A DNA stretch of 64,000 bases, from assembly GCA_933822405.4 (NCBI GenBank), contig CAKOGP040001112.1, positions 775,887 through 839,886 on the forward strand. Reading direction: 5' to 3'. The stretch comes from Cylindrotheca closterium (lineage: Eukaryota; Bacillariophyta; Bacillariophyceae; Bacillariales; Bacillariaceae). The translations under genes and the position numbers were made by a program. Each line of letters begins with the position of its first letter. Position 1 is the stretch's first letter. The notes beneath the pieces are model-generated. The model saw nothing but the letters and a program-made list of their open reading frames with translations. It searched no databases and was not told the DNA's origin. Shown here piece by piece: positions 3,801 through 57,120 of this stretch.

Positions 3801-4781
3801 CTCCAAAAGCGTCACCTTTGCCTTGATTCCTTCGTTTTTCAGGAGAGTTAATAACTCAAGGCAGCAAGACAACCCTGCGATACCACCACCAATTACTCCA
3901 ATTTTGTAATACTCCCCCGACCTGGTTTGCATTGGAACTGACTGCAGCCGGGTTCCACCAGCAAGAAGAGCCGCTTCCGCCTCAGCGTTTGTTGTTGAGT
4001 TCTTGTCCCAGACAACATTTCCACTATTATCACGTTTCATGTTCAGCATACCGAGGACCCGATTATTTCCGGATTGGAGGTTGGACAATGGATAGAATGG
4101 AGGCAATTGGGTATCATTTAGAAAGGTACTCAACGACATGGATGCTCTCCACCCCTCATTCGATTCCGCCTTTTCTATTTGTGATGTCAGTGTTGCAGGT
4201 GGCACTTCATATTGATAGTAATCTGGTCCAACAAAATCTCCTCCACTTTCACAGGCATTCAGAATGCGTTCTCTCTTTGCAGAGTCTCCTTCACTTGCCT
4301 CATTCACATTCAGAAAAGTTGCTAGTAACTGCCTGTAATCTGATAGGCTAGATGATGTCGACCTCACATACTTGAATTTTTGGACAGATTGATTCTTCGC
4401 GGATGGCGGGAGCTCTGTCTTTTCCTCTACTTTTTGGCGCTTGTTTGGCTGCGAGTCATCTCCTTCCTCGGCTTGCTTTGCTTCTTCTTCTTTCTCCTTG
4501 TCCAGAATCAATTTCATCCTTCTATTGAGTTCCAACGAATCTGCTTGATCTTGAAACCATAGACTCGATGCCTCCTTGAGAGCAGACTGGTCGACCATGA
4601 CACCATAGTATCTCTTGTTGTTGGATGTGGTAGCGCTCACATAACATCCTTCTCCTGACTTTCCCGTGGGCCCATGATGAAGTGTAAAAGACTCCTCTAC
4701 TTTTACATTTTCAATCTCCTGGTGCTTCCGTAGCCCTCCACCACGTCGTCTTCCTCGTCTCTTTTTTTCAGCTGTACTCAT
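805..4781 (-). CDS. LSD1/polyamine-oxidase-like flavin amine oxidase with two extended PHD fingers and a C-terminal PDZ domain
   Basis: Two exons, 4781-3723 and 3654-805, are joined across a 68-bp intron (GTAAGTG to TTTCAG) and keep frame to give about 1302 residues. The first ~290 residues are charged and unrecognised. A dinucleotide-binding VIGGGIAGLSC (about 294-304) starts the FAD fold. The exon junction yields MELGASWIHGI, the usual amine-oxidase substrate segment. GFGLLNKVYLCF (about 659) carries the Lys conserved in LSD1/PAO enzymes, and GEHTTALHPSMAHGA (about 814) is the C-terminal FAD motif. Two Cys/His-rich extended PHD modules follow (about 871-978 and 1008-1114), then a PDZ-like domain (about 1231-1302). 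The chemistry would be FAD-dependent oxidation of a methyl-lysine or polyamine. The PHD modules favour a chromatin substrate, but that is inference. I saw no clear SWIRM or tower domain. Confidence 0.88.
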
Positions 4782-46614: not shown

Positions 46615-48645
46615 CTATCGTCTCCGTCCTCCACTCTTTTTGTTTCTCGATCTAGGTGTTGAAGTACTGGCAGACGGAGTGGATGAAAACCCACCAAATG
46701 CTGGTGGTGCTCCTGCTGCAGGTGCTGGAGCACCAAATGCTCCTCCAAATGTTGGTGCTGGGGCTGCACCAAAGCCCCCAGGAGCTGGTGTTCCGAAGCC
46801 CCCAGGAGCAGGGGCGGGTGTGCTTCCAAAGAGACCTCCTCCTCCTGGTGCTGGAGCTGGTGCTCCAAAGCCCCCAGGAGCAGGTGCTGGGTTACTTCCA
46901 AACAAGCCTCCTCCGGGCGTTGGAGCGGGAGTACTGCCAAAGAGACCTCCTGTTGATGGAGCGGGGGCTCCAAAGCCCCCTGGAGCAGGTGCTGGGTTGC
47001 TTCCAAACAAACCTCCTCCAGGTGTTGGTGCGGGAGCACCAAACAAACCACCAGAAGGTGCTGGTGTACTGCCAAACAAACCACTAGAAGGTGCAGGAGC
47101 ACCAAATAATCCCCCGGAAGAAGGTGCAGGAGCCCCAAACATCCCAGTGCCTGATGATGGCGTACTACCAAACATACCTCCCGATGCTGGACCTGGACCA
47201 GGAGCTGCCTTTTGCGGCAATGCTTTGACCATTTGCCGTCGCATTTCATGGTCCAGTTCTTGTTGCCGTTGCTTTTCCTTTTGGTCCGCTTCCACCAAAA
47301 CATTCTCCTTGGTTTCTTGTCTCTGATAGGAAAATCGCAATTGATCCACCTTTTGGTGGATTGGTGCCAAGGCAGCAGCCAATTTCCAAATCGACTGCTC
47401 TTGCAATTTGATAATAGCCACAACATCAACGTCTTGATTTTGTGTAGTAGTCGCTTCTTGAAGTGCCTTGTGAGTGGTAGTCATTTCTTGCTGCAATAGA
47501 GCAATTCGTTTTTCTAGTTGATCCAATGTTTGCCACAAGTACGGTGATGGCATGCGTTCGACTCGATCCACGTGGGCGGCCTCCCGATCCAACAGATCTT
47601 TGAGTTTGCCTTGCAATTCGGCATCTTGCGAGCTCGATGCGGATTTGGGTTTGGACAAGGTGACCCCTCGTCGCATGGCGACTGCTTCGGTGGGCCATTT
47701 GGCAAACATTATGCTTTGTGTAGTGGCACTTTGGAAGAGTGTTTGTGTGTGTTCCACTCGTTGCCGTATATGAACCAACTGATGTTGCAAATTTTGCACT
47801 TGGCCTCGCAATTTGCGGACATTTGACGCTAGAGGCAAGGAATCCTGTCCAGCTGCAGCATCAGCTTGTGACGTTGAAGATTGTGAGGTATTTGGTCGCA
47901 ATAGTTTGGGTGCCATGGTAGACACTTGCAGAATGGTGCGTTTGTGTTGCATCATAGCTTGATATAGTGTATCAATTGCCCTTTTCTGATCGGGATTCAG
48001 GTTGGCATAGGGAAGGTGCCCTGCCAAGGCAGCCTGAGGTGCGGCAGGTGCCCCATATCCTCCTGGTTGTCCAAATCCACCGGGCGCAGGTGCAGGGTTG
48101 TTTCCAAACAGAGAATTACCAGGTGCCGGTGCTGGGTTGTTTCCAAATAGTGAATTACCGGGCGCAGGTGCAGGGTTGTTTCCAAACAGAGAATTACCAG
48201 GTGCCGGTGCTGGGTTGTTTCCAAATAGTGAATTACCGGGCGCAGGTGCAGGGTTGTTTCCAAATAGTGAATTACCGGGCGCAGGTGCAGGGTTGTTTCC
48301 AAATAGTGAATTACCGGACGCAGGTGCAGGGTTGTTTCCAAATAGTGAATTACCGGGCGCAGATGCTGGGTTGTTTCCAAACAGAGAATTACCAGGTGCC
48401 GGTGCTGGGTTGTTTCCAAATAAACTTCCACCTCCTCCTGGTGCTGGTGTTCCAAAGCCCCCCGGAGCTGGTGCTGGGTTACTTCCAAACAAACCAGGTG
48501 CAGGTGTACCACCACCACCAAAAGAAAAGCCACCAGGGGCTGGTCCTGGAGTTCCAGGTGCCGGAGTAGAGCCACCGCCAAATGAAAAGCCACCACCACT
48601 TGGTGCAGGAGCCGGTGTTGAGGACCCACCGAAACTGAATGCCAT
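46615..48645 (-). CDS. FG-repeat nucleoporin, Nup58/p45-like
   Basis: The ATG at 48645 (MAFSFGGSS) gives 676 residues. Residues 1-205 are FG/LFG repeats, including a run of near-identical 13-residue units NSLFGNNPAPAPG. Residues about 210-455 are alpha-helical with DQKRAIDTLYQAMMQHK, SPYLWQTLDQLEKRIALLQQ and IIKLQEQSIWKLAAALAPIH, matching the Nup58 coiled-coil region that pairs with Nup54 and Nup62. A second GLFG-rich domain with the SSGGLFGAPAPS pattern follows to residue ~665, ending in a basic tail. The product would line the central channel of the nuclear pore. Long antisense frames here are by-products of the repeats. Confidence 0.88.
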   Translation of the reverse strand: MAFSFGGSSTPAPAPSGGGFSFGGGSTPAPGTPGPAPGGFSFGGGGTPAPGLFGSNPAPAPGGFGTPAPGGGGSLFGNNPAPAPGNSLFGNNPASAPGNSLFGNNPAPASGNSLFGNNPAPAPGNSLFGNNPAPAPGNSLFGNNPAPAPGNSLFGNNPAPAPGNSLFGNNPAPAPGNSLFGNNPAPAPGGFGQPGGYGAPAAPQAALAGHLPYANLNPDQKRAIDTLYQAMMQHKRTILQVSTMAPKLLRPNTSQSSTSQADAAAGQDSLPLASNVRKLRGQVQNLQHQLVHIRQRVEHTQTLFQSATTQSIMFAKWPTEAVAMRRGVTLSKPKSASSSQDAELQGKLKDLLDREAAHVDRVERMPSPYLWQTLDQLEKRIALLQQEMTTTHKALQEATTTQNQDVDVVAIIKLQEQSIWKLAAALAPIHQKVDQLRFSYQRQETKENVLVEADQKEKQRQQELDHEMRRQMVKALPQKAAPGPGPASGGMFGSTPSSGTGMFGAPAPSSGGLFGAPAPSSGLFGSTPAPSGGLFGAPAPTPGGGLFGSNPAPAPGGFGAPAPSTGGLFGSTPAPTPGGGLFGSNPAPAPGGFGAPAPAPGGGGLFGSTPAPAPGGFGTPAPGGFGAAPAPTFGGAFGAPAPAAGAPPAFGGFSSTPSASTSTPRSRNKKSGGRRR
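48094..48412 (-). repeat. 39-bp tandem repeat array inside the Nup58-like gene
   Basis: About eight near-identical 39-bp units encode NSLFGNNPAPAPG on the minus strand. Units differ at only a few bases and fall into two alternating subtypes (AACAGAGAATTACC versus AATAGTGAATTACC on the plus strand), which indicates recent unequal exchange or slippage. The copy number may be wrong in the assembly. Confidence 0.85.
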
Positions 48646-48985
48646 TTTCAATTGGTTGTTTCAAGGGTTAGTTTATAGCAGCTGTGTTGATTCTATTGTT
48701 TGTCGCGTGTTGGCAATAGTGGAATTGTAGCGAGAGTGGGGATGGATAGTCTTTGTAAGGGAGGTTGTCAGCTGTTGCCGTTGCATGTTGACCATCATCA
48801 TTGCATCGGCGGCCGTTTGAATCCTTCGAACACCGGTCGGCGTATGGACACCGAGTGGAATTTCAAATTCAAAACTGAAACGATGCAAACAACAAAAATG
48901 ACAAAACACCAAACAATCGAAATCAGGGCTATAATCTCCATGCTCCAAAAATTGAATAATCACTCTAGAATGGTCATATAACACG
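48646..48985. other. Shared upstream region of the Nup58-like and glycosyltransferase genes
   Basis: 340 bp between divergent starts. It presumably holds both promoters. I see no TATA box, RNA gene or repeat. Confidence 0.35.
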
Positions 48986-51123: not shown

Positions 51124-51128
51124 GAAGC
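51124..51128. repeat. Target-site duplication, left copy (GAAGC)
   Basis: GAAGC directly precedes the left LTR and is repeated directly after the right LTR at 57116-57120. The perfect 5-bp match fixes the element ends. Confidence 0.85.
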
Positions 51129-51482
51129 CGTTGAGGCAACGCCAGAAATGCCGATCGACAGCACCTATGAAGTGACTGTCCCGTCTAACTAATAGAACAG
51201 ATAGATCCGCACCGCAGGTGTGCTGTAAATCACTTTAGTCTTTTAGAATTTTCAGAAAACAATGAGGATTGCAAAACACTTTGCAATTGCATTGTATTCT
51301 GAACATTCGCTTTCTACTTGTTCTAAAGATTCTCGTTGTCGTAAGCTAATACGTCCACGAGTACCAGTCATACTCCGACCAATACATTCCAACCAATATG
51401 CCGTGGGACATGTAATTGTAATAAACGTGATTGGCGTTCGTGACTGGTGAGTCACTAATGGCAAATCAGCTTTGCTCCAACG
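51129..51482 (-). repeat. Left LTR (3' LTR of the element)
   Basis: 354 bp, identical by eye to 56762-57115 with a constant offset of 5633. The ends are CGTTG...CAACG, a 5-bp perfect inverted repeat rather than the common TG...CA. Inside are the primer-complementary segment and an 18-bp palindrome at 51269-51286. Confidence 0.93.
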
Positions 51483-51502
51483 CACTCCTGTGTCCAAGTG
51501 CA

Positions 51503-54500
51503 TTAGGAGTATTGGTCGGAAGGGTTCATAATGAGGTTTCTGAATGTGCGGAACAGTGTTCCCTGCGTAGGCTTGGTGAAGAAGTCTCCCAGCATTTTGG
51601 CTGTCGGGCAGTGAAGTACTCTCATGAATCCACTCTTGATCTTGTCAGTAATAGAAAAGTATCGCACGTCGAGGGCTCTTGTCTTCCTGCCGCAAGATGA
51701 TCTTCCATTCTTCTCCAGCAGCATGGCGCTCTGATTGTCCTGGTGGATGATGTTGTCGACTACTTCGTATCCTTGTGAAATGATGAAGTATCTGGACCAC
51801 ATGATCATAGGTAGTGCATCGTGTACTCCAACCAACTCTGCTACAGTCGAACTGTCGGTATTGATCTTTTGCTTGGTTGAGATAGCGATGATGGCGCCCT
51901 TACCCATGGTCAATACAGCACCAGTGTGGCTCTTCATGTCCTTGTGAACTGCGAAGGACGCGTCCACCCACCATTGCATGACAAACTTGTCGTCCAACTC
52001 AATTGTCAGGGGCATGTACTTGGTAGCTCTCAAATATTTGATGGATCGGCCCAATTTTGCATAATCGTCTTCGTCTGGCTTGGAGACTCTGGTTGTCAAA
52101 AATGCAACTGCAGTCATTAAGTCCCCTCTGACTCTCTTGCATAGGTATAAAAGTTTTGCCGTAATGTGGTGGAATAGTTCGGCCCTCTTGCTGTCCAACA
52201 ATACCGGCTCATTCTTGACTTGGAATAGATGATTGGCGGCCGGTGATGTAGCCAGTCCTTTCATATCCTCTGGGGTTTCTTCGAGTAACCTGTCGACGTA
52301 ATCATCCATGGAAAACTTTACCTTTCCTTTTTCGCTGAAATCGATCGTGACCCCAAGGTATTCGTGCACGTCACCTCTCTGGATTGTGAGGGGTGCCTCC
52401 TTTCCGTACCTTTCACTCAGTCTAGATGCAATATCCTCAAGGACTTCTTGCTCCATGTGGGAAACCTTCAAGTCGTCGACATGCCAGATGATGGTGCATT
52501 GCTTTCCATTGATCATCTTGTTGACAACGCAGCTGTCATACGGGTTGGCCTCGTACCCCAATTCGTCCACCAGGAACCCAGAAAGGTTCTTCCACCAGCA
52601 CAACGCTCCTTGCAAGGTCCCGTAGAGGTTCTTGTTCAGCTGTGCATAGATGACCGGCTTCTTTCCTTCATATGCAACGTATTTAGTGTAAAGGGCTGGG
52701 TCAACTTTTGTTAGTAGTTCGGCTATCTCCCCTTCGAACTTGACGTGGATAATCTCGTCTGTATCAGCCTGCATGAATGCTCCAGGAATGTCGATTGTCA
52801 TGACCTTGCGGCCTTCTTTGGCATCAATTGCGCACGTGATCATGAAGGACTCGGTGCGTACAGTCGGCGCGGATGTCTCTTCCTTTGTTTTGTAGAGACG
52901 TTGGCGGCGCCCGTCGGCGCATCCGCGGGCCTTGACCTTTCCACATCTCTTTTCCTTCAGGAACATTAGGTATCTCAAGGCGTTCCTCCTTTGTTCTGGT
53001 GTCAGTTGGCTCCTGTACTTGGGCGATAGCACATTCCTGTAGTGTATCTGATGCATCTCCGCCACGATGGCCTCTGCTCCTGATTCTCCAAACACTTTCA
53101 ATCCTTTCTTTGCTGACATTTGTTCTGTTAGAAAAGCCACTTCATGATGGAACAAGGTTACCATCTCTGTGTATTCCGGTACAGGTTCGTCCCTGTGTGG
53201 AACCTGGATGAGGACCTGGTGATCTCCATGAGTTGTTGGGTATTTTCTGGGACGAAGGTTCCTTCCATGTCCTCTTTCACCATACGCTCTATCCATGTCA
53301 TCATTGATTTGTTGTTGATTCTGATTTTGGGTCAAGTTCTGAAGTTCTTGTACTTCCTGTTGCACCTCTTGTTGGATCTCTTCGATCAATTCATCCAGTT
53401 GTGTGTCCGCGGCAGCTTGTTCTCGGGCGTCATCATCTTCCGAACTGTAGTCACTGTCATCACTGGTTGTGGAACCGCCATCTTGGGGGTCCATTTGTGT
53501 GCTTATGCTGTCCACTCCTGTATTTCTGGCGTCCACTCCTGTGTTTCCCCTGCCCACTCCTGTATTTCTGGCGTCCACTCCTGTGTTTTCATCAGGGAAC
53601 TGTGGTTGGTGTTGTTGCAGCTGATGTTCATTCACTCCTGCGGGCAGGATGCCGGCGTTGTCGGGAGGCTGGTCGTTATCGGGATCATCAGAGTCAGAAT
53701 CATTGCTGTGAGTAGTATCATTTTCATCAGCGTCATCTACGGAATTGTTGTCGTCGTAGGCGCTGGCATCATCGTCCACAGGTGTTTGTGGAGGTGGCAG
53801 GGTGACATCGCTAGCATCACTGTCATAGCTAATGTCATCGTCATCTGTGTGAGTGTGGGTGGCGGACGCATCGGAAGAGCTGTACAAGGAGTCGTGATCG
53901 TCGTCCACTTCGTCATCGTCGTCAATAAGCTCCCTTCCGTGTCGGTCTGCAAATGTCAGTGTAGTGGGCATGCCCTGTTGTAGTCCACGGTTGCTGACGG
54001 CCTCGATGACATCAGTAGGCATGGGTAGTGGTGTCCAATGTTGCCTTGTGATGCGCTTGCCGGTTGCAACGCTCATGAAATAGTGTGAGCCTTGTGCTGC
54101 ACCAGTGGGCCCAAGGCATATTGCGCCCAGCGTGCGTGCACGCATATCATTGGAATGTTCCTCATGAGTTTGGACATATGCGCCGAATTCGGTGCGGACA
54201 TGGAGTTTCATGTTTACATTTCTTCCGGTTACAATGTATTTAGGCGAAAGCGTGTCAGAAACCCCATCCAATGCTGGGAAAGCATTGAGCCAGAACACTG
54301 CATTTCGAATCATGTGTTCTAGAATCAGTTTGGGAATTCGTCGAAATGGCAGCATGTTATATGTGCTGCGCACCCTGTCCTTGATAGTGCGGATAAAACG
54401 CTCTACTTCCGGCACATGCTCATCTGCACCACAGCAGTCGACCTGGATGTTGGGGAATTGTTGTTTCAGAGGCTCAAACTCTGGGTCCCCAAGAATGCAT

Positions 54501-56746
54501 GTGACTTTGAAGTTGCGTCGGGAGTACAGTTCAAATACTTTGCGCATACTGTCGGTGATGGTCTTGATGCGTCGGTTGGTGAGGCGCTCCACAGTACCGA
54601 ACTTCAGGTGCCTGGAAATGCTGACCAGGAACGGGACTTTGTTTACAAATAATATGTCAATTGCCAATGTGACCTCTGAATAGAGTTGCTGGATGTGGTC
54701 TGGAATTGGTCCCACCTCGGTCCTTACGTGGCTGTCATTGCGGGAAGTGGTTTTTCCTTTCAGCGATCCGAGATTAGGTCCATAAATGTTGTGGGCCACT
54801 CTGATGTCTTCCGCTGTCACAGGACAGTCACGGAGCAGATTTTTGTTCACGATATCAGTGAATCGTCGATCTCCTGGTCGGCCGATGATGTTTTGAATGT
54901 GTCGAGCCTGCGCCGCTCGCATTACAGCCGCTTTGGTGTGCTTGGCTTTCTGCTCTTTCACAGTTTCCAGGAACGTCCATGACGTCTTGCAGTAGTCATC
55001 GAGGTCGATGTGATACAATCCCTTGTCGGTTGGGAGGAATTCGACCTTCTTGGTACCGCCAAAGTCCACCACGAATCGATCTGCCCCCCTGTTGTCATAC
55101 ACAACGTGGTAGTGCTTGTTGACATCATGGAATGATAGGATGTTGGCGATCCCATCGGGGTTGAACCATACTGGATCCGGATAATCCCCAAAATATCCCT
55201 TCATGTTCAATTGTACCACCCCTGCATTGCATCGGACCTTCAGTCCATGTTGGACCTTGTGAATGTTTTGTAGTAGTGATCGATTGCAAAAGATGTTTGC
55301 TGTAGACCCAGTGTCCAGAACGATCCATGTTACCGGTAGGCCTGATTGCGGGTGGCGCTTGGGAATGAGTTTCACATACGACTTGTTGTTGGAATGGAGG
55401 AAGAGGTGCTCAGTGGTGGAAACGTCTTCATCGACTGCTATGGAGTCAGTATTGACTGGGTTGGTTGAATCGCTAGGTTCCTCAGTGGTCAAATACTCGT
55501 CAACTTCATCGTTATTGTTATTGTTGGATGTGTCAGTGATGTGAGTTTCGTGTTGTTCGTGGTTTCTATTTGGACGTCGCTCAAAATCTCGCCCGCGACC
55601 ACCGCGCCCGCTGCTTCCGCGCCCGCCGTTCCGACCGCCGCCGCTTCTTCCGTTGGGACCGCCGCCGCGACCGCCCGTCCCGCTCTCAGTGGATGGCTGG
55701 CCGTCGGCAAGGAATGACGCACCGATTTCCGAGCTGCGGATGCTTGAATGATACGAGGCAACAAGTGGCTTGCTGTTGTTGAGCAATTCGATAGCTCCTG
55801 ACATGGTGGTGGGAAACGTGTCGCTTCCGCTGAACAGTCTTGCATTGTTGGCCTGGGCAATAAGGCCCCCATACCGCTTTCTGTCTGCTCCGAGGAGAAA
55901 AGCCATCGCCATCTCCTTCTCCACAATCTTCTCTTCTACCGCTCTCAGTTCAGCCAGTGTTGGGTCCGATTTGCCGGTCTCTTGAATGAGCCTGGATAGG
56001 GAGGCTCCCATGGGGCAGTCGCAGAATCTGGCCGTATTGGAAAGCTGCATGAAGACTTGAAGGTACTCTGCATTGGTTTGGTTTTCCTTCTGCTTGCAGG
56101 TGTAGGCCTTTCTTTGAGCTTCGACACCCATCATAGTTGGATCAACGTTGGTGGATCCGCCCGTGGCCGCTACGATCTGGAAGACCTTGAGCATGTCCAT
56201 TGAGCTGTTGTTCGCGATGACCGTGCCCCACTTTGGATGGCTCTCAGCAGCGCTCAGGAATGCTGCGGAGCAGTGGCGTTTCAACATTGCGCAAAGAGCT
56301 GCTTCATTTGCCTTGCGCACAGACTTCTCCGCCTCATACTTTTTGTCCTTCTTCAAGTAATCATGTTCTTCCTGTTTGTTGTCCCAATCCGGAAGGTTTG
56401 GTGCAACCAAAGGAGGCAGAGAGAATGGGTCTTTGGCGGTTGAAGTTGATTCTCCCACCATCAGGTAATCGGAAGCATCCTTTCGGTTTGACACGAAGTA
56501 AGCAATGTGGGCCTTCACGACTTGGAGGAATGGGGGCACTCTTGGATCCACGTTTGGGAGCTCATAGTAATATCCCTTGAGCTCTGGTTCCACAGTTGAA
56601 GGGGGCTTGGATTGAGATGCAGCTCCAAACTTGGTGTTGTTCTTTTGCTTGCCTCGCCGATTCCTGTTTCTTGGCCGGATTTGGTCAGACCCGCTGTGGG
56701 CAGGGTCTGGGGGCGACTCGCCTTGGCCGTCGCTTTCAGTTGGCAT
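51503..56746 (-). CDS. Copia-type gag-pol polyprotein (intact)
   Basis: The ATG at 56746 (MPTESDGQGE) gives 1747 residues; the longer frame into the LTR is not needed. Gag occupies about 1-470 and has a Gly/Arg-rich tract (about 352-392) where a CCHC zinc knuckle would be expected. The protease motif VLDTGSTANIF is at about 478. The integrase core has Asp in LAIDILFV (about 695), Asp in CILGDPEF (about 752) and Glu in PEVERFIRTIKDR. A long acidic linker with repeated NTGVDARNTGV units follows. RT carries MTIDIPGAFMQAD (about 1315) and WHVDDLKVSH (about 1418), with His replacing the Tyr of YVDD. RNase H has WWVDASFAVHKD (about 1590), and GDFFTKPTQGT follows near the end. Gag and pol are in one frame with no shift. 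Confidence 0.95.
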   Translation of the reverse strand: MPTESDGQGESPPDPAHSGSDQIRPRNRNRRGKQKNNTKFGAASQSKPPSTVEPELKGYYYELPNVDPRVPPFLQVVKAHIAYFVSNRKDASDYLMVGESTSTAKDPFSLPPLVAPNLPDWDNKQEEHDYLKKDKKYEAEKSVRKANEAALCAMLKRHCSAAFLSAAESHPKWGTVIANNSSMDMLKVFQIVAATGGSTNVDPTMMGVEAQRKAYTCKQKENQTNAEYLQVFMQLSNTARFCDCPMGASLSRLIQETGKSDPTLAELRAVEEKIVEKEMAMAFLLGADRKRYGGLIAQANNARLFSGSDTFPTTMSGAIELLNNSKPLVASYHSSIRSSEIGASFLADGQPSTESGTGGRGGGPNGRSGGGRNGGRGSSGRGGRGRDFERRPNRNHEQHETHITDTSNNNNNDEVDEYLTTEEPSDSTNPVNTDSIAVDEDVSTTEHLFLHSNNKSYVKLIPKRHPQSGLPVTWIVLDTGSTANIFCNRSLLQNIHKVQHGLKVRCNAGVVQLNMKGYFGDYPDPVWFNPDGIANILSFHDVNKHYHVVYDNRGADRFVVDFGGTKKVEFLPTDKGLYHIDLDDYCKTSWTFLETVKEQKAKHTKAAVMRAAQARHIQNIIGRPGDRRFTDIVNKNLLRDCPVTAEDIRVAHNIYGPNLGSLKGKTTSRNDSHVRTEVGPIPDHIQQLYSEVTLAIDILFVNKVPFLVSISRHLKFGTVERLTNRRIKTITDSMRKVFELYSRRNFKVTCILGDPEFEPLKQQFPNIQVDCCGADEHVPEVERFIRTIKDRVRSTYNMLPFRRIPKLILEHMIRNAVFWLNAFPALDGVSDTLSPKYIVTGRNVNMKLHVRTEFGAYVQTHEEHSNDMRARTLGAICLGPTGAAQGSHYFMSVATGKRITRQHWTPLPMPTDVIEAVSNRGLQQGMPTTLTFADRHGRELIDDDDEVDDDHDSLYSSSDASATHTHTDDDDISYDSDASDVTLPPPQTPVDDDASAYDDNNSVDDADENDTTHSNDSDSDDPDNDQPPDNAGILPAGVNEHQLQQHQPQFPDENTGVDARNTGVGRGNTGVDARNTGVDSISTQMDPQDGGSTTSDDSDYSSEDDDAREQAAADTQLDELIEEIQQEVQQEVQELQNLTQNQNQQQINDDMDRAYGERGHGRNLRPRKYPTTHGDHQVLIQVPHRDEPVPEYTEMVTLFHHEVAFLTEQMSAKKGLKVFGESGAEAIVAEMHQIHYRNVLSPKYRSQLTPEQRRNALRYLMFLKEKRCGKVKARGCADGRRQRLYKTKEETSAPTVRTESFMITCAIDAKEGRKVMTIDIPGAFMQADTDEIIHVKFEGEIAELLTKVDPALYTKYVAYEGKKPVIYAQLNKNLYGTLQGALCWWKNLSGFLVDELGYEANPYDSCVVNKMINGKQCTIIWHVDDLKVSHMEQEVLEDIASRLSERYGKEAPLTIQRGDVHEYLGVTIDFSEKGKVKFSMDDYVDRLLEETPEDMKGLATSPAANHLFQVKNEPVLLDSKRAELFHHITAKLLYLCKRVRGDLMTAVAFLTTRVSKPDEDDYAKLGRSIKYLRATKYMPLTIELDDKFVMQWWVDASFAVHKDMKSHTGAVLTMGKGAIIAISTKQKINTDSSTVAELVGVHDALPMIMWSRYFIISQGYEVVDNIIHQDNQSAMLLEKNGRSSCGRKTRALDVRYFSITDKIKSGFMRVLHCPTAKMLGDFFTKPTQGTLFRTFRNLIMNPSDQYS

Positions 56747-56747
56747 T

Positions 56748-56761
56748 TTGTTTTCTGAAAA
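56748..56761 (-). other. Primer-binding region, self-complementary to the LTR
   Basis: On the element's sense strand the 14 nt TTTTCAGAAAACAA begin at the first base after the 5' LTR and end 2 nt before the gag start codon. They are the exact reverse complement of the segment at 56882-56895 inside the LTR. No obvious match to a tRNA 3' end (such as TGG at the LTR edge) is present. This suggests priming by the transcript's own 5' end. Confidence 0.6.
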
Positions 56762-57115
56762 CGTTGAGGCAACGCCAGAAATGCCGATCGACAGCACCTA
56801 TGAAGTGACTGTCCCGTCTAACTAATAGAACAGATAGATCCGCACCGCAGGTGTGCTGTAAATCACTTTAGTCTTTTAGAATTTTCAGAAAACAATGAGG
56901 ATTGCAAAACACTTTGCAATTGCATTGTATTCTGAACATTCGCTTTCTACTTGTTCTAAAGATTCTCGTTGTCGTAAGCTAATACGTCCACGAGTACCAG
57001 TCATACTCCGACCAATACATTCCAACCAATATGCCGTGGGACATGTAATTGTAATAAACGTGATTGGCGTTCGTGACTGGTGAGTCACTAATGGCAAATC
57101 AGCTTTGCTCCAACG
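56762..57115 (-). repeat. Right LTR (5' LTR of the element)
   Basis: 354 bp, identical by eye to the left LTR. On the sense strand an initiator-like CTCATTG at about position 218-224 precedes the 14-nt segment complementary to the primer-binding region. An 18-bp palindrome TTGCAAAACACTTTGCAA (56902-56919) lies just upstream of it. No TATA box is evident. Confidence 0.93.
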
Positions 57116-57120
57116 GAAGC
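57116..57120. repeat. Target-site duplication, right copy (GAAGC)
   Basis: GAAGC directly follows the right LTR and matches 51124-51128. Confidence 0.85.

Follow-up and report, generated by a model that had tools for sequence, protein, structure and literature searches.

Elements with long terminal repeats (LTRs) usually depend on host tRNAs to prime reverse transcription, and the locus described here raises the question of what primes an element whose primer-binding site (PBS) is complementary to a segment of its own LTR. The window, by which we mean the whole stretch of DNA analyzed, is 64,000 nucleotides of contig CAKOGP040001112.1 from Cylindrotheca closterium; the element, which has a copia-type reverse transcriptase (RT), occupies positions 51124-57120 on the minus strand. 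An earlier note on this DNA proposed that the element's own RNA serves to prime reverse transcription, in the manner of Tf1. That proposal is supported, and very probably right (roughly 0.88 by our estimate), given the complementarity, its position, and its covariation over nine families of related elements, all of which is evidence read from sequence.

Complementarity between primer site and LTR

The features on which the argument turns are the following:

56762..57115, minus strand: 5' LTR, 354 bp, CGTTGG...CAACG, with 0 of 354 differences from the 3' LTR
56748..56761, minus strand: PBS, TTTTCAGAAAACAA, directly abutting the 5' LTR
56882..56895, minus strand: putative self-primer, TTGTTTTCTGAAAA, exact reverse complement of the PBS, at +2 to +15 of the putative RNA
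56892..56898, minus strand: initiator-like TCATTGT, with the putative transcript start, an A, at 56896

When re-read and computed, the 14 nt that follow the 5' LTR (56761-56748) proved, as the earlier note had said, to be the exact reverse complement of LTR positions 56895-56882, and the match is flush with the LTR edge, the PBS beginning exactly there. The primer segment comprises LTR bases 221-234 and is preceded by CCTCA; past the 14 matched nucleotides the putative +1 A faces another A, a mismatch, and on the LTR side a G-U pair may form. Across 1000 dinucleotide shuffles of the LTR, the longest edge-anchored match was 10 nt and the mean 4.4, and the chance of about one in a million first put on the match holds for even base composition, as was stated with it. 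Both partners are unchanged in all four copies of this family, here called family A, that include the site (window, C79, C144 and C155). The copy on contig C79 does not differ from the window element in the RT region or across a query of 401 bases that spans LTR and primer site, while those of C144 and C155 diverge elsewhere (97% and 96% identity).

The initiator-like CTCATTG pointed out earlier before the LTR segment is present; TCATTGT agrees with YCAYTYY at six of seven positions. The oomycete initiator YCAYTYY is described as mapping just upstream of the transcript start, and a position just upstream is what would be expected here if transcription begins at the A. The family-A transcript would then start at about 56896.

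Covarying primer sites in related families

The complementarity is broader than first claimed: it is a group-wide feature, found in all nine testable families. These are family A, its sister family B, five further families of the same genome (C35, C151, C155b, F2 and F3), and two elements whose contigs are catalogued as bacterial metagenome-assembled genomes (MAGs). Each site matches its own LTR over 12-17 nt, as against a maximum of 8 nt for exact matches across families, maxima of 8-12 nt across families in shuffled LTRs (1000 per family), and no more than 9 nt from start points further in, past the site, in the eight families with enough internal sequence. Of 126 primer-PBS positions in the nine families, 125 pair (one through G-U), and the type of pair is variable at all 14 positions. 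No reassignment of sites to families was as good as the observed one (0 of 100,000); wrong-family combinations formed a mean of 7.1 of 14 pairs and at most 12, except that A with B reaches 14 by way of G-U. Covariation in related elements, a check proposed in the earlier note, is therefore present and strong, in family B as over the nine families.

Family B, with an RT 86% identical to that of family A and LTRs identical to those of A in 244 of 380 aligned columns, carries TTTTCGGAAGACAA after the LTR and TTGTCTTCCGAAAA inside it, positions 6 and 10 being altered on both sides relative to A; primer and PBS pair without mismatch in all three copies having the site. The five further families of the same genome, whose RTs are 43-47% identical to that of family A, likewise have sites that pair with their own LTRs, over 14 nt in C35, 17 nt in C151 and, measured from the edge, 15 nt in C155b and 12 nt in F2; counting the last LTR base, the latter two come to 16 and 13 nt. 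The 16-nt match is kept in 9 of 14 C155b copies and the 13-nt match in four of six F2 copies; in a seventh F2 slice, L099, the LTR is followed by a different sequence. A scan of genome contigs gave four copia contigs, of diatom type, filed under bacterial MAGs (L106, L107, L108 and L109). The element of L106 (63% identity) matches over 12 nt at the edge, or 13 with the last LTR base, and that of L108 (42% identity) over 16 nt, both matches adjoining a CTCACT or CTCATT motif; no primer site is readable in L107 or L109. The LTR edge was taken from LTR copies, independently of the match, in seven families, and 5' slices without a matching LTR were left out (L077-L081, five of eight; L072 and L073, two of five).

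A YCAYT motif occurs at the matching place in all nine families. Counted from the start that this motif indicates, the exact match spans +1 or +2 to between +13 and +16 in seven families, and in M106 exact pairing begins at +4 (at +2 with a G-U pair).

Sites were also predicted from LTR copies alone. For F3, only LTR copies were known beforehand, none of them showing the site; the motif CTCACTTTTGTG gave the predicted primer, and the search pattern consisted of the LTR end, up to 12 free bases and the predicted site, with the reversed pattern as control. The pattern had 82 matches in the genome against 0 for the control, although the 82 are not all independent, tandem arrays being present in C206, C369 and C85. 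In 76 of them TTCTAACA is followed directly by TTCAATCACAAAAG, and six (C206 four times, C532, C189) stand directly after a listed LTR copy. The prediction for F4, a family outside the nine, gave 4 matches, with a single spacing, against 1 control match.

If the window element primes itself, transcription would start at about 56896, and the first 15 or so nucleotides of the RNA would fold back across an R-U5 domain of about 120 nt to pair with the PBS. A cut by the element's RNase H, after about +15, would leave a 3' end adjoining U5, to be extended into U5 by reverse transcriptase. The primer would be retained and, once copied into plus-strand DNA, would renew the PBS with sequence from the 5' end of the transcript. 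The RNA primer of Tf1 reportedly stays on the cDNA. With a primer so retained, the plus-strand copy would rewrite the site and keep both sites matched without a host tRNA, and such rewriting would, we infer, explain sites that differ between families yet match within each.

Alternatives to self-priming

RNA folds were predicted for the stretch that begins at the putative start and ends 60 nt beyond the LTR (14 nt beyond it for F3), and in nine of nine families the predicted fold closes with the primer-PBS helix, with a mean pair probability of 0.94-0.99 and a folding z between -1.7 and -6.2. The rival explanation that survives best, though we consider it improbable, is that this helix is structural, acting in packaging, dimerisation, circularisation or translation control, and that priming is done by something else. 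Such a role would suit a helix predicted to enclose the R-U5 domain in its entirety. The distance from PBS to gag ATG is 1 nt in family A and 2 nt in family B, so that the helix could affect translation. A purely structural helix would, however, tolerate shifts and mismatches, whereas one side of the observed helix starts at the LTR edge, the required place of a primer 3' end, in seven of the seven families with an independent edge (C155b with a 2-nt adjustment). Moreover, a site of tRNA type is visible in none of the nine.

A host tRNA able to pair with the site, for which the earlier note had advised a search, was not found in an incomplete set of 21 distinct host sequences, drawn from 30 of 63 tRNA matches: the longest match between any of them and a primer of the nine families is 8 nt, and edge-anchored matches reach 7 nt at most. 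None of the nine PBSs starts with TGG, that of C35 having TGG from its sixth base. These results bear also on half-tRNA priming, in which the PBS is bound by a fragment from inside a tRNA, as in Drosophila copia, and which we regard as very unlikely here. On our reading, TTTTCTGAAAA of family A can be drawn as an anticodon arm with a CUG anticodon loop, and half-tRNA priming has precedent in some copia elements, among them plant Osser, Bryco, Gymco-II and Bianca (PMC6317226). Against it, the longest match in that incomplete set of tRNAs is 7 nt in family A and does not exceed 8 nt in any of the others, and each of the nine would call for a tRNA piece of its own that by chance also occurred in the family's LTR at the same relative place. 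A half-tRNA-Gln was considered specifically for family A and rejected, the best match among the 21 sequences being 7 nt.

Chance complementarity in an AT-rich LTR, to which the AT-rich primers of several families (C155b, F3) and a longest match of 12 nt in 1000 shuffled F3 LTRs might point, is scarcely credible for matches that occur in nine of nine families at the LTR edge, adjoin the same motif, covary, and gave 82 genome matches against 0 when predicted for F3.

A number of points nevertheless weigh against self-priming. The prediction for F1 had 0 genome matches; only two full-length F1 LTR matches are listed, each just downstream of an RT, so no F1 5' LTR is known. The match is degraded in 5 of 14 C155b copies (15, 15 and shifted, 14, 12, and 10 nt) and in two of six F2 copies, one with 10 nt and one without a 10-nt match. 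For L106 and L108 the LTR edge is defined by the match itself, and for C155b the alignment of the LTR pair ended 2 nt short and the edge was moved to the next CA. Folding z is modest for F2 (-1.7) and C151 (-2.2). The start of the transcript is placed by one criterion, the position of the initiator-like motif; at that motif the F3 copies L064 and L066 read TTACTT instead of TCACTT, the C151 match extends 4 nt upstream of the assigned start, and in A, B, C35, F2 and M106 the +1 base has no partner (in F3 it was not seen). That this RNase H would cut an RNA-RNA duplex is an assumption carried over from Tf1, and the tRNA set, as stated, is incomplete. Finally, the distant copia element L117 (25% identity; partner loci 26-27%), in which there is no match of at least 10 nt in the 899-nt LTR-to-gag region, speaks for self-priming as a trait of the group, but this outgroup is a single case with provisional LTR ends.

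For a further outgroup element, G001:C73, an LTR pair was searched for and not found. Three scans of IMG/VR confirmed no relatives and none was found in the phage collection, while the plasmid collection held three distant copia-like records at 22-25% identity to the query; in two of the three, which were examined, there is no LTR pair. The copia-like RTs occur in three actinomycete "plasmid" records, L120 (NZ_CP115454.1), NZ_CP115302.1 and L121 (NC_015657.1), possibly through contamination by plant elements.

Known systems and structure of the window element

Self-priming is established for Tf1 of Schizosaccharomyces pombe, whose RNA pairs through its first 11 bases and is cleaved by RNase H between bases 11 and 12 (PMC7175516); the same mechanism has been proposed for Tj1 (PMC4600332). 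Like the Tf1/sushi elements, the diatom group has at the LTR edge a PBS complementary to the putative 5' end of its own RNA, and no tRNA site. Unlike them, since they belong to the Ty3/gypsy class, the diatom elements have a copia-type RT (RVT_2), and their match, known here from sequence alone, differs from that of Tf1 in covering 12-17 nt, often from +2. The window element is not a Tf1/sushi member, though its mechanism may be Tf1-like.

Within Ty1/copia, self-priming has been predicted from LTR-PBS matches of at least 10 bp for the plant TAR lineage (Houba, Osr-1), which thus resembles the diatom group in the kind of complementarity on which the prediction rests (PMC6317226). It differs in coming from land plants and, in the sections of that source bearing on TAR, in having neither a covariation test nor a link to an initiator (PMC6317226). 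The contrast drawn in the earlier note with copia elements primed by tRNAs or half-tRNAs thus stands in part: there is no tRNA-type PBS here, but self-priming of copia elements had already been predicted, for TAR (PMC6317226). What is new is probable self-priming in a diatom-type copia group, backed by covariation, and it is less unprecedented than was first claimed. Among the papers listed in searches of the open-licence PubMed Central literature, none was seen to report self-priming for LTR elements from diatoms or other stramenopiles, a scope that does not show there to be none. Fungal GalEa copia elements share with the diatom group the lack of a tRNA PBS but are described as having, at the PBS position, a palindrome, the Conserved Hairpin Site, with no complementary LTR segment as partner (PMC5445492).

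Of the CoDi families (CoDi1-7), also Ty1/copia elements of diatoms, 3 of 26 (CoDi3.2, 4.2 and 4.3) are listed as lacking TG/CA ends (Maumus et al. 2009, PMC2806351), and such ends are absent in families A and B as well. The terms "primer binding" and "tRNA" do not appear in the main text of that paper, and priming is not described there under these words (PMC2806351). The LTR ends of family A (57115 and 56762 in the window) and of most B copies are CG...CG rather than TG...CA.

Should self-priming hold, the tie to host tRNAs would be cut in diatom copia elements too, besides Tf1/sushi and, by prediction, plant TAR. We lean, with considerable reserve, towards self-priming as ancestral and general in the whole deep diatom copia lineage, having evolved apart from Tf1/sushi. 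A PBS rewritten each cycle from the transcript 5' end would then make for independence from host tRNAs and for primer sites that drift freely between families, and genome sequence alone would reveal the transcript starts of these elements. The corresponding rule, that the PBS is the reverse complement of about +1/+2 to +15 after YCAYT, predicts transcript starts from sequence, suggests why PBS searches based on tRNAs would miss these elements, and offers an easy test when retroelements of diatoms and marine metagenomes are annotated.

The window element is an intact, recently inserted Ty1/copia element of diatom type. Its remaining features are:

51129..51482, minus strand: 3' LTR, 354 bp, with 0 of 354 differences from the 5' LTR
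57116..57120, minus strand: target-site duplication GCTTC, 5' side, 5 bp, read from sequence
51124..51128, minus strand: target-site duplication GCTTC, 3' side, 5 bp, read from sequence
51503..56746, minus strand: gag-pol frame, intact, with its ATG at 56746, 1 nt past the PBS
51483..51495, minus strand: polypurine-tract-like GGACACAGGAGTG, directly before the 3' LTR
56925..56936, minus strand: PBS-like copy in U3, TTCAGAATACAA, agreeing at 11 of 12 positions (shuffle p 0.01)

The assignment to Ty1/copia reflects the copia-type RT together with an LTR pair flanked by a 5-bp target duplication. The pol region matches Pfam RVT_2 (copia-type reverse transcriptase) with an E value of 3.3e-19, the only Pfam reverse transcriptase over cut-off in the element, and the part of the frame before it, where an integrase would be expected, has conserved residues without a Pfam integrase match (E up to 0.1). 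The listed open reading frame of gag-pol, 1764 aa and free of stops, runs from a GTG at 56797; we read the ATG at 56746 as the probable start codon. Diatom origin is judged from named protein matches, the best being named Cylindrotheca closterium and another Nitzschia inconspicua, and not from clustering with CoDi1-7. Before the 3' LTR, a GGAG(T/C)G core is much alike across families with differing LTRs (many related loci, 3' flanks of L047-L068), and this stretch may be a conserved, not purely purine, polypurine tract.

In A, B, C35 and M106 (LTRs of the window element, L070, L074 and L106), a PBS-like copy is found in U3, 18-29 nt before the putative start and at 29 nt in family A, and in these four it forms an inverted repeat around that start. 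For a copy within 29 nt of the start, shuffle p is below 0.05 in A, B and M106, 0.06 in C35 and 0.08 in C151; in the remaining four of the nine families no such copy lies near the start, hence the feature is not general. Its role might be to mask the primer copy in the 3' R, or it might be part of the promoter.

LTRs of several families occur in regular tandem arrays, in C60, C326, C206, C369, C338 and C195, at spacings of 750, 750, 1347, 2062, 1535 and 440/549 bases, respectively, and these arrays look like LTR-derived satellites. In C206 the primer site directly follows four of the five listed LTR copies. The ends of L106 and of L108 overlap, and each contig contains a single LTR, as from a one-LTR circle or a collapsed assembly; in L108 pol is separated from the next LTR by nearly 900 bases (about 3815-4700) that apparently include coding sequence, possibly an extra 3' gene. 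Elsewhere in the window, positions 48040-48507 hold a 39-base tandem repeat, with nine overlapping 156-nt copies in register, within a minus-strand frame (46615-48651) that is rich in LFG motifs and presumably resembles an FG nucleoporin.
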